NCBI GenBank assembly: GCA_014654455.1
Contig: JACWCY010000001.1
Location: 182,001 to 246,000 of the forward strand
DNA length: 64,000 nt
Origin: Pelagibacterales bacterium SAG-MED01
GTDB lineage: Bacteria > Pseudomonadota > Alphaproteobacteria > Pelagibacterales > Pelagibacteraceae
Reading direction: 5' to 3'
Part shown: piece by piece, positions 45,564 through 49,855 of the stretch
How positions within the stretch are numbered: position 1 is the stretch's first letter
How the letters are laid out: every line of letters begins with the position of its first letter
Made by a program: the position numbers and the translations under genes
The notes under the pieces: generated by a model
What the model saw: the letters and a program-made list of their open reading frames with translations, nothing else
Database searches by the model: none
What the model was told of the DNA's origin: nothing

Positions 45564-48044
45564 ATGATGAAAAATAAAATTACTGCTGTTCTTGGTCCAA
45601 CAAATACAGGCAAAACTCATTTGGCTATTGAAACTATGTTGTCTTTTGACAGTGGAATGATTGGGTTTCCACTTAGATTGCTAGCTAGAGAAGTTTACGA
45701 TAAAGTTATTAAAAAGACTAGTTTAGATAAAGTTGCTTTAATTACTGGAGAAGAAAAAATTATTCCTCCAAATGCAAGATATTTCCTATGTACAGTTGAG
45801 TCTATGCCTATTGATAAATATTTAGATTTTGTTGCTGTTGATGAAATACAAATGTGTGCGGATCATGAACGAGGTCATATATTTACTGATCGACTATTAA
45901 ATACAAGAGGTAATAAATTAACTATGTTAATGGGTTCAAATACTATTAAAGATGTAATTTCAAAATTAGATGAGGATATAGAGTTTATAAATAGAAATAG
46001 GTTATCTAAACTTACCTATACTGGTCATAAAAAAATATCCAGAATAAATAGAAAAACTGCAATTATTGCATTTTCAGCAGAAGAGGTTTATGCCATAGCA
46101 GAGCTAGTTAGAAGGCAAAAAGGTGGTGCAGCGATTGTTATGGGGTCGCTTAGTCCAAAAACTAGAAATGCTCAAGTTGAATTATATCAATCAGGAGATG
46201 TAGATTTTTTAATTGCTACAGACGCTATAGGAATGGGTATAAATATGGATCTAGATCATGTTTATTTTTCAAACTTGAAAAAATTTGATGGCAAAAAACT
46301 AAGGAAATTAAATTTGTCAGAAATAGGACAAATTGCAGGAAGAGCAGGTAGGTACTTAAATGATGGAAACTTTGGTGTTACTGGACAATGCAAGGAAATA
46401 AATGCCGAAGAGGTTGATTTATTGGAAAATCATAAATTTGAAAAAATTCAATCTTTGTTTTGGAGAAATTCTAATTTAAATTTTGACAATCCTTTTAAAC
46501 TAATAAAGTCTTTAGATGAAAAACCACATAAAAGTTGGTTAAGAAAAATTCATGAATGTGAAGATGAAAAGGCTTTAAAGTTTTTCTTAAATGATAAAAA
46601 TTTAGATAAGATTGATTTTAATAAAGAAAAATTAAATCTTTTATGGGAATGTTGTCAAATACCTGATTTTGTCAAGAAGACTTACGGCAATCATTATCAA
46701 GTTATTGGAAATGTTTTTAAATATTTAAATAGTAAAAAAGGTAAAATTACTGATGATTTCATGCGACTACAATTGATTAAACTGGATAAATTAGAAGGAA
46801 ATGTAGATTCTTTATCGAATAGAATTGCAAATGTTAGAACTTGGTCTTATGTTTCAAATAAAATTAATTGGGTTGAAAATCAAAATTATTGGATAGAAAA
46901 AACTAAATTATTAGAGGACAAACTATCAGATAGGCTTCATGAAGAACTTACTAAAACTTTTATTGATAAACGAGCAAGTGTTCTCGCTAGAGGATTAAAA
47001 CAAGATATGGAATTTAATACTAAAATTTTGGAAAATAATGATGTAATGATTGATGATCAGTTTATAGGAAAAATAAACGGACTTAAATTAGAATTAGATC
47101 TAAAAAAAGGGGCTTTAGAAACAGATATAAAATCTCTAAAAAAAGCGGCCAGACATACCGTAGGTCCTGAGCTTGAAAAAAGAATTCAAAGTATAATTGA
47201 GACAGGTTTAATTGAATTAAAAGATGATTTTAAAATTTATTGGAATAAATTTTCTATTGGAAAATTAATGCCAGGAAAAGATTATTTGAATCCAAATTTT
47301 GAATTAATAGTTGATGACATTTTAGAACAAAATCAAAAACATAAATTAATTAATTTTATTGAAAAATGGCTTAAGAATAAAATTAATAAGATTCTAGAAA
47401 GCCTAATTGATTTAAAAAATCTAAAAAAAGAAAACTCCTCAGTTAAAGCTCTTGCATATCAATTATATGAGAATAATGGAGTGCTTAAAAGAGAACAGGT
47501 TTCTGAATACCTTAAAAAACTGGAACAAAACGAAAGAAAAATTTTGAGAGATCTTGGGGTAAAATTTGGTAGGTACCATGTTTTTCTTCACAGATTGATA
47601 AAACCAGAAGCTGTATCATTAAGAACATTGCTTTGGAAAAATTATCACCAAAAATACTTTGATTTAAAACCTCCAACTTTTGGTTTAAATTTTTTAAATG
47701 ATAAAAATAAAACTAATAAAAATTTTATGTTACTTTGTGGATTTGAAAAATTTGAAAATTTTTTTGTAAGAATTGATATTCTAGAAAGATTATTTATGCA
47801 AATAATAAATTATGACTCTAAAGAAACTAAAGAAATAAAAATGATACCAGAAATGTTAAATTTACTTGGCTGTAACAAAGATAATTTCAAAAAACTTTTA
47901 CGAAGTATGAACTATAAAATTATAGAAAAAAATGATGAATTATTTTTCAAATATATGCCCAAAAAAAGCAATAAGTTAAAAAATGAAAAAAAAACTACAA
48001 AAGAAAATCCTTTTATTGTATTAAAAAATTTCAATTTCAATTAA
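45564..48044 (+). CDS. SUV3/SUPV3L1-like ATP-dependent RNA helicase
   Basis: AVLGPTNTGKTHLAIETML, DEIQMCADHERGHIFTDRLL, ATDAIGMGINMDLDHVYFSNLKKFDG, GQIAGRAGRYLNDGNFGVTG. Confidence 0.92.
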   Translation: MMKNKITAVLGPTNTGKTHLAIETMLSFDSGMIGFPLRLLAREVYDKVIKKTSLDKVALITGEEKIIPPNARYFLCTVESMPIDKYLDFVAVDEIQMCADHERGHIFTDRLLNTRGNKLTMLMGSNTIKDVISKLDEDIEFINRNRLSKLTYTGHKKISRINRKTAIIAFSAEEVYAIAELVRRQKGGAAIVMGSLSPKTRNAQVELYQSGDVDFLIATDAIGMGINMDLDHVYFSNLKKFDGKKLRKLNLSEIGQIAGRAGRYLNDGNFGVTGQCKEINAEEVDLLENHKFEKIQSLFWRNSNLNFDNPFKLIKSLDEKPHKSWLRKIHECEDEKALKFFLNDKNLDKIDFNKEKLNLLWECCQIPDFVKKTYGNHYQVIGNVFKYLNSKKGKITDDFMRLQLIKLDKLEGNVDSLSNRIANVRTWSYVSNKINWVENQNYWIEKTKLLEDKLSDRLHEELTKTFIDKRASVLARGLKQDMEFNTKILENNDVMIDDQFIGKINGLKLELDLKKGALETDIKSLKKAARHTVGPELEKRIQSIIETGLIELKDDFKIYWNKFSIGKLMPGKDYLNPNFELIVDDILEQNQKHKLINFIEKWLKNKINKILESLIDLKNLKKENSSVKALAYQLYENNGVLKREQVSEYLKKLEQNERKILRDLGVKFGRYHVFLHRLIKPEAVSLRTLLWKNYHQKYFDLKPPTFGLNFLNDKNKTNKNFMLLCGFEKFENFFVRIDILERLFMQIINYDSKETKEIKMIPEMLNLLGCNKDNFKKLLRSMNYKIIEKNDELFFKYMPKKSNKLKNEKKTTKENPFIVLKNFNFN

Positions 48045-48464: not shown

Positions 48465-48790
48465 TGACCTACATAGTTAACGACAAATGTATCAAGTGTA
48501 AATTAATGGACTGTGTTGAAGTTTGTCCTGTTGATTGTTTCTATGAGGGAAAAAATATGCTTGTAATTAAACCGGAGGAGTGTATAGATTGTGGCGTTTG
48601 TGAACCAGAATGTCCTGTGGATGCTATCAAAGCGGATACAGAGTCTGGGAGCGAAAAATGGTTAGAAATCAATAAACAGTATTCTGAAATCTGGCCCAAC
48701 ATAACGGAAAAAAAAGATCCTCCAGCGGATCATGAAAAATTTAAAGATGAGCAAGATAAGTTTGAAAAATATTTTAAAGAAAACATTTAA
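48464..48790 (+). CDS. fdxA: Ferredoxin (7Fe-8S / FdxA type)
   Basis: [29 protein letters not shown]...[19 protein letters not shown]. Confidence 0.95.
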
Positions 48791-49637
48791 AAAAAAATCA
48801 GTAAAATTGGTGAAAAAAAAAGTAGCAAAAAAGACTACTAAATTAAAAGTCAATAAATCAAAGACAATTTCAAATAAAAAACAAAAAAAAATCATTAAGT
48901 TAAAAAATTTAAAAAGTAAAAAAATTATCAATAAAAAATTAGTTAAAAAGAATAATGAAAAAATTGAAAATAAAACTGAAAATTTAAGAATTTCAAAAGG
49001 TAATGAAATCAAACCTGAAATAAAGAAAGTAAAAAAACAAGAAACTGAAAAGAAAGAATACAAAGTTAAAGATTATGTTGTTTACCCAAAACATGGTGTA
49101 GGGCAAATCATTGAGTTTAAAAAAATCAGTATTGGTGGAATTGATGTAGAGACTTATATAATTAAGTTTGAAAAAGACAAAGCTAACGGAATGGTCCCAG
49201 TAAATAAACAATCTCACCTTAGACCATTAGCTACCATAAACCAGGTTAACAAGTGTATTTCAATACTCAAAAGTAAACCAAAAATTAAAAGATCAATGTG
49301 GAGTCGAAGAGCTCAAGAATACGAAGCTAAAATATCATCGGGCAAGATATATGAGTTGGCTGAAGTTGTAAGAGATCTAAATAAAGGAGATGATTTAATG
49401 GTTGATCAATCTTACAGTGAAAGACAGTTATTTGAGAAAGCTTATGAAAGAATGTTATCTGAATTTCAAATTATTTTAAATATTTCATTAGAAGACACTC
49501 AAAAAAAACTAGATAAGGCTTTAAAAAGAAATTTAGAAAATCAATCTAAACCTACGGCGACCACTCCTAAAAATCCATCATCTGATTTACCTGTTGAAGA
49601 AACTATTTCTGATACAGATGAAAATATAGAGGAATAA
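48732..49637 (+). CDS. carD: CarD/CdnL-family transcription regulator with lysine-rich N-terminal extension
   Basis: CarD domain [48 protein letters not shown]; start uncertain (48732, 48747, or a GTG/TTG after the ferredoxin stop). Confidence 0.9.
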
Positions 49638-49640
49638 AAA

Positions 49641-49680
49641 AAAACGCCTCTCACACGTAAATCGTTATGAGAAGCGTTTT
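49641..49680. terminator. Bidirectional intrinsic terminator between carD and the small basic peptide gene
   Basis: AAAACGCCTCTCACACG-taaat-CGTTATGAGAAGCGTTTT hairpin with A/T tracts on both sides; convergent genes. Confidence 0.85.
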
Positions 49681-49700: not shown

Positions 49701-49775
49701 TTATCTTCTTCTTCTTTTTTTAGCTTTCTTTGCTTTTTTCTTAGCTTTCTTTGCTTTTTTTCTTCTCTTAGGCAT
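49701..49775 (-). CDS. 24-aa polycationic peptide (Lys/Arg/Ala), absent from the supplied ORF track
   Basis: MPKRRKKAKKAKKKAKKAKKRRRR*; strong SD AAAAAGGGAGCTAAAGATG, upstream promoter-like elements and a downstream terminator. Confidence 0.8.
   Translation of the reverse strand: MPKRRKKAKKAKKKAKKAKKRRRR
49720..49760. repeat. Tandem 20-nt direct repeat with 21-nt period inside the small peptide gene
   Basis: TTAGCTTTCTTTGCTTTTTT at 49720-49739 and 49741-49760; encodes a repeated 7-residue AKKAKKK unit. Confidence 0.85.
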
Positions 49776-49796
49776 CTTTAGCTCCCTTTTTAGTTA

Positions 49797-49817
49797 AACG
49801 AATCAAAATGATTCGTT
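49797..49817 (-). promoter_or_regulatory. Perfect 8-bp-arm hairpin in the leader of the small peptide gene
   Basis: AACGAATC-attтt/aaaat-GATTCGTT inverted repeat (5-nt loop), between predicted transcription start and SD. Confidence 0.7.
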
Positions 49818-49826
49818 ATTAAGTTA

Positions 49827-49855
49827 TTTTTATTTTTTTATGCACGTTATGTCAA
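49827..49855 (-). promoter_or_regulatory. Sigma70-like promoter for the small peptide gene
   Basis: Minus strand TTGACA (49850-49855), 17-nt spacer, TAAAAA (49827-49832); predicted start about 49820. Confidence 0.55.

Follow-up and report, generated by a model that had tools for sequence, protein, structure and literature searches.

We found that the hairpin loop of the rhtB RNA (Rfam RF01814) is antisense to the translation start of a very short polycationic ORF in Pelagibacter, and we propose that rhtB acts as a trans-encoded antisense RNA, blocking translation of this minimal histone H1-like peptide. We regard the explanation as a whole as likely although not secured, its expression, repression and DNA-binding parts being inferred. 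The peptide gene, its conservation, the antisense match, the co-variation of the two loci across genomes and a promoter-like box on the rhtB strand were all computed here. The peptide gene lies in a 64,000-nucleotide stretch of DNA, referred to below as the window (C1:182001-246000 of its own genome, which is AT-rich and whose public genus-mates are Pelagibacteraceae/Pelagibacter). An initial annotation of the window had described the peptide gene; the relation to rhtB was beyond its reach, the partner lying on another contig outside the window.

The promoter, hairpin, Shine-Dalgarno (SD) sequence, ATG, 24-codon ORF and terminator described in the initial annotation are each present in the sequence (Table 1). 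We infer that transcription starts at about 49820-49818. The CGAATC/GATTCG hairpin occurs as a single copy in its own genome and probably serves as a 5' stabiliser, which is an inference, and the predicted fold of the mRNA consists of this 5' hairpin and a mostly open start region. After Met-Pro, all 22 of the 22 residues of the peptide are K (12), R (6) or A (4), one more than the 21 counted in the initial annotation. A polycation of only 24 aa would be expected to be disordered on its own. A scan of the window at the Rfam gathering threshold returned tRNAs only.

Table 1. Elements of the peptide gene and its convergent neighbor in the window.
Feature	Position	Strand	Basis
-35 box TTGACA of the peptide gene	49850..49855	-	Sequence; TTGACAT kept in other genera and in nearly all of the 46 genus-mates whose upstream region is present
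-10 box TAAAAAT (TAAAAA at 49832-49827), 17 nt from the -35 box	49826..49832	-	Conserved context AAAAAAATAAAAAT
5'-terminal mRNA hairpin AACGAATC-ATTTT-GATTCGTT, perfect stem	49797..49817	-	Kept in genus-mates, loop variable
Near-invariant SD-start stretch GGGAGCTAAAGATGCCTA, proposed rhtB antisense target	49769..49786	-	Invariance and RF01814 loop pairing
SD AAAAAGGGAGCTAAAG	ends 49776	-	Sequence
ORF of 24-aa polycationic, putatively H1-like micropeptide MPKRRKKAKKAKKKAKKAKKRRRR	49701..49775	-	ATG 49775, stop 49703-49701
Intrinsic terminator, hairpin and T-run, common to the peptide gene and convergent carD	49641..49680	-	Sequence; kept in genus-mates
carD, convergent neighbor (context only, not in the unit)	48732..49637	+	Pfam CarD_TRCF_RID and CarD_C; synteny in 21 genomes of 9 genera

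The terminator shared with carD is a single bidirectional one, and the convergent arrangement persists in each of the two families of the order whose loci were read. The CarD protein itself has a lysine-rich N-terminal extension of ~100 residues (48732-49058) outside its Pfam domains, and a K/A-rich stretch is also found near CarD in another alphaproteobacterium (L377). Elsewhere in the window (45564-48041) is an 826-aa helicase-like protein with a Pfam DEXQc_Suv3 match (mitochondrial SUV3 helicase domain) and a long lysine-rich C-terminal part; a TerB-domain protein follows it.

Conservation in the genus bears out the earlier claim of a dedicated peptide gene. Of 60 same-genus genomes searched at the DNA level, about 50 gave a match to the region, and every genus-mate readable there has, at the same place, a K/R/A(T/P) ORF that follows the same AGGGAGCTAAAGATG and is convergent to carD; one locus (L046, of genome G037) has the A variant of AGGGAGCTAAAGATG, and two others (L049 and L050) start at contig ends. 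Across the 64 sequences analysed, the peptide is 21-35 aa long and differs in length by whole codons only. The reading frame is thus kept, with in-frame indels alone, so that the frameshifts proposed as grounds for refutation do not occur. Among single-base codon differences between nearest neighbors, 73 of 99 are synonymous, or 74% against 22% expected, and 20 of the 26 nonsynonymous differences are K-R exchanges. This count was made between nearest neighbors of equal length; because the sequences are related, any P value is nominal only, but the direction is plain. The control elements are kept as well: the -35 box, the AAAAAAATAAAAAT box and the CGAATC-loop-GATTCG hairpin recur in genus-mates with a loop of varying length, and AGGGAGCTAAAGATG is invariant in the genus except in the co-varying lineages described below. 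Judged from sequence, the 24-codon ORF is a genuine gene, far beyond chance. A dual-function RNA, also raised earlier, gained no support, and the ORF itself is under coding constraint. Two same-genus genomes that are at least 94% complete (G132 and G171) contain rhtB, and a CarD search did not find carD in them; each has only one copy of the 19-mer pattern introduced below, the peptide locus being either missing or in an assembly gap.

We located the same locus in other genera by means of a CarD search. Five further genera of the family, and a second family of the order, have a longer gene convergent to carD, which encodes roughly 26-58 aa in the sister genera (for example MAKKRKKAAKKKVAKKPAKRKVAKKKPAAKKRKPAAKKKAPAKKRKPAKKKTAKKRKR in one of them) and about 85-100 aa in the second family (MEELKVIFAKARKKAKKKAAPKKKRKAAKRKPAKKKAAPKKKK...). 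The second-family proteins have AAPKKK/KAAKRKP repeats, histone H1-like KAAPKKK repeats are a feature of the longer homologues in general, and the homologues of the order show the K/A/P-rich repeat tail with length variation that is typical of H1-like proteins. The window peptide is therefore best read, from these comparisons, as the shrunken end of a series of H1-like polycations. This assignment rests on composition and repeat pattern, as neither Pfam nor NCBIfam gave a profile match for the peptide or for four longer homologues. Outside the order, none of the 28 CarD loci with the best scores showed a K/R-rich ORF convergent to carD. Leaders in the sister genera also start with a hairpin after CGAATCA, at the same place and with a different stem sequence; different stems at the same leader position support a real RNA structure. 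In four sister-genus loci (L157, L160, L163 and L164), the leader folds into a short CUCC...GGAG hairpin, by which the SD would be masked in cis.

The ribosomal peptides bTHX and bS22 resemble the SAR11 peptide in size and charge. A ribosome- or RNA-associated factor of this kind, rather than a nucleoid protein, is the alternative that survives best, although we consider it unlikely: the peptide's strong SD and dedicated promoter would suit such a role, and polycations bind RNA as well as DNA. A bTHX-like protein, which the initial annotation had offered as one option, would nevertheless be expected to keep a fixed length and fixed residues, whereas the same-locus proteins range from 21 to about 100 aa through repeat expansion, are repeat-like with no fixed residue pattern, and match no ribosomal profile in NCBIfam or Pfam. 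The H1-tail-like option of the same annotation is the one favored by the longer same-locus homologues with KAAPKKKRKAAKRKP repeats, binding to DNA or RNA being inferred.

The search pattern GGGAGCTAAARATGSC, covering the start region of the peptide gene, was found only in this genus, and twice in most of its genomes. The second copy, on the opposite strand, is the rhtB motif (C13:6705-6787 in the window's own genome; 79.9 bits against a cut-off of 55, model positions 1-83). RF01814 scored above the cut-off in 50 same-genus genomes and in none of 14 control genomes. We ruled out that the second 19-mer copy belongs to a paralogous gene, as its frame (MAKKDY...) is unconserved and the opposite strand at this site is RF01814. 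The loop of the rhtB hairpin, UUAGCCAUCUUUAGCUCCCGG, is the reverse complement of the SD, spacer, AUG and codons 2/3 of the peptide mRNA. In the sister genera, RF01814 gave sub-threshold chance matches only, and the DUF2805 locus there has no comparable hairpin by eye. One Pelagibacter genome (G009, 92% complete) has the peptide and no RF01814 match; its DUF2805 neighbor is also missing, and an assembly gap is possible.

Meyer et al. (2009) described the rhtB motif from 919 unique sequences with a well-conserved loop, and considered it a possible regulatory (cis) element or a terminator for neighboring genes, naming no target (PMC2704228). The hairpin, the bulge, the conserved loop and the rhtB/DUF2805 context of that description are all recognizable in the window's own genome; different here are the reading of the loop as a trans antisense to the peptide start and the addition of an upstream promoter box. 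On the Rfam strand, 57 of 57 rhtB loci have this extended -10 box, TGNTANNN, in the 24 nt that precede the hairpin, a regularity known from sequence only, the activity of the box not having been measured. It usually reads TGATATTAT or TGATATATT and stands 6-9 nt upstream of GATAGTCC; a conserved TAATGCA is found farther upstream. Over 50 nt of flank, the promoter side holds 21.2 bits of information and the opposite side 14.7 bits. A T-run of at least 5 follows the stem directly at 15 of the 57 loci, against a terminator-type feature at about 50% in the earlier study (PMC2704228), and the transcript may, in many lineages, continue into the rhtB gene. Thus, rhtB has the appearance of an RNA of one hairpin that possesses a promoter and, in some lineages, a built-in terminator; that it is expressed remains inferred. 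In the window's own genome, the hairpin (L082) is upstream of a DUF2805-like gene and a glutaredoxin gene on the other strand. Here and at one further locus (L085), the rhtB exporter gene that usually lies on the far side is not evident, yet the hairpin is retained, which fits a role in trans. A Red Sea SAR11 mdRNA-Seq paper (PMC5069720) does not mention rhtB, and our literature search, which did not cover subscription journals, turned up no earlier account of the peptide or of a target for rhtB.

The SD-AUG stretch of the peptide gene, GGGAGCUAAAGAUG(G)CUA, is near-invariant, which we attribute to its match, as antisense, to the RF01814 loop. When the window's own genome was searched for the 18-mer GGGAGCTAAAGATGGCTA as a pattern with up to 3 mismatches, it matched exactly at one site (rhtB) and with a single mismatch at one other (the peptide start). 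The next closest, three sites with 3 mismatches, do not resemble start sites, and two of them show as in-frame coding sequence. Contiguous pairing covers 14-19 bases in the pairs checked, with 14 in the MPK lineage, to which the window belongs, and 18-19 in the MAK lineages. In the MPK lineage, codon 2 has changed from GCT to CCT, which leaves one uncompensated C-C mismatch; the same genomes have AAG as codon 3 with CUU opposite in rhtB, giving 5-6 more pairs past the mismatch. The predicted duplex energy is -37.8 kcal/mol; among 65 other ORF starts of the window, the best value is -27.0. Shuffled target regions averaged -19.5, and one of 300 reached -36.3, so that energy alone is weak evidence and co-variation is the strong part. 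All 80 public genome matches listed for the 19-mer are from Pelagibacteraceae or Pelagibacterales, and consist of 47 peptide loci and 33 rhtB hairpins (one of the latter was classed as 'other' by script and is an rhtB hairpin by eye). Matches in viral contigs were dropped, these being ordinary ribosome-binding sites and a short unrelated ORF in GC-richer contigs.

In classical type I toxin-antitoxin systems, the toxin is a hydrophobic membrane peptide. An antisense RNA directed against the start site of a very short ORF recalls such a module, in which the freely made peptide would be harmful and rhtB would be the antitoxin RNA, and the H1-like HctA of Chlamydia is indeed lethal in E. coli and rescued by the RNA IhtA (PMC4355289). 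We think this improbable for the SAR11 pair, in which the RNA and the peptide are at separate loci, the peptide is a polycation rather than a hydrophobic membrane peptide, and the distribution is not patchy but that of a core gene whose synteny is fixed throughout the genus and order.

Co-variation of the two loci carries most of the weight for an antisense relation. The variant GGGAGCTAAAAATG (AAAG to AAAA) is present in 16 of 399 genus genomes. All 13 variant genomes with both loci carry the change in both, none being discordant; in the other three, only one of the two loci is readable, and the metagenome-assembled and single-cell genomes in the sample are incomplete. Parsimony on a carD tree requires four changes, at least two of them forced by well-supported branches, so the double change happened 2-4 times. 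The evidence thus consists of one kind of double change in 2-4 events. In addition, a single change in the mRNA of one genome (G220) and a single change in the rhtB of another (G053) both remain G-U pairable.

The same co-variation would arise if the shared 19-mer were the binding site of one protein, such as the peptide, a ribosomal protein or a DNA-binding regulator, at two loci, with a single recognizer and no RNA-RNA pairing, and the lower stem of rhtB has been called a convincing inverted repeat (PMC2704228). We give this reading little credence: the motif covers exactly the SD to codon 3 at one locus, and its complement is in a hairpin loop at the other; at every rhtB locus examined, it is the antisense strand that carries the promoter-like box; and the changes in G220 and G053 preserve G-U pairing, which is relevant when RNA pairs with RNA but not when a protein recognizes DNA. 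Resemblance of the two sites through chance or shared descent, without function, is barely tenable. A few unrelated viral contigs do use the 19-mer as an ordinary ribosome-binding site, but throughout the genus both sites are kept, in opposite coding senses, and vary in concert, and the concordant variants already disfavor it.

Antisense control by rhtB would then operate as follows. The locus in the window would encode a minimal histone H1-tail-like peptide that neutralizes and compacts nucleic acid, most likely the nucleoid. A hairpin RNA of roughly 50 nt would be made from the extended -10 promoter of rhtB, with a proposed start at GAUAGUCC on the RF01814 strand. Its loop, UAGCCAUCUUUAGCUCCC, is predicted to pair with the SD, spacer, AUG and codons 2-3 of the peptide mRNA, and pairing at this unstructured region would keep 30S subunits off. 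Co-expression of the two RNAs, a repressing rather than activating effect of their pairing, and DNA binding by the peptide are inferences. The CUCC that the sister-genus leaders contain in cis is supplied in Pelagibacter in trans by rhtB, which suggests that control of this gene has passed from cis to trans.

SAR11 is the most abundant bacterial group of the ocean, its cells are among the most numerous on Earth, and it has few transcriptional regulators. The proposed pairing would provide a target and a mechanism for RF01814, an RNA family that has been without a known function or target since 2009. The analysis also brings to light a core gene that is below the length limits of gene callers, and whose product would be missed by trypsin-based proteomics because trypsin cuts at nearly every residue. 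The two loci offer a clean natural test of RNA-RNA co-evolution.

The closest known parallel is the IhtA-HctA (Hc1) pair of Chlamydia. HctA is an H1-like protein that condenses the chlamydial chromosome, and loop 1 of IhtA covers the AUG of hctA (PMC4355289). As proposed here for rhtB, a trans-encoded RNA occludes, with a hairpin loop, the start codon of the mRNA of a small, very basic H1-like protein (PMC4355289, PMC3469542). The two systems differ in that IhtA is a 107-nt RNA with three stem-loops and a critical pairing of 7 nt, whereas rhtB has one hairpin and 14-19 contiguous pairs, and in that HctA is a larger DNA-binding protein while the SAR11 peptide has 21-35 aa. No IhtA-type match was among the Rfam matches (E<=5) of these loci, although whether Rfam holds an IhtA model was not checked. 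By analogy, and without a direct alignment, the SAR11 pair would be independent of IhtA-HctA, as the RNAs look nothing alike. The second-family homologues also resemble HctB/Hc2 of Chlamydia and AlgP of Pseudomonas, which have K/A/P-rich repeats and a length that varies with repeat number (compare PMC2848022, PMC9239181); unlike these, the SAR11 peptide has as few as 21 residues, no other domain and no Pfam match. The parallel with IhtA suggests that H1-like polycations come repeatedly under start-codon antisense control. We advance only tentatively, as a possibility that falls somewhat short of even, the broadest reading: that nucleoid compaction or general nucleic-acid charge balance in SAR11 is run by one micropeptide, the smallest H1-like protein known, whose level is set by a dedicated single-hairpin antisense RNA. 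The SAR11 pair would then be a second independent origin, alongside IhtA-HctA, of small RNA control over a bacterial H1-like protein, in a regulator-poor lineage.
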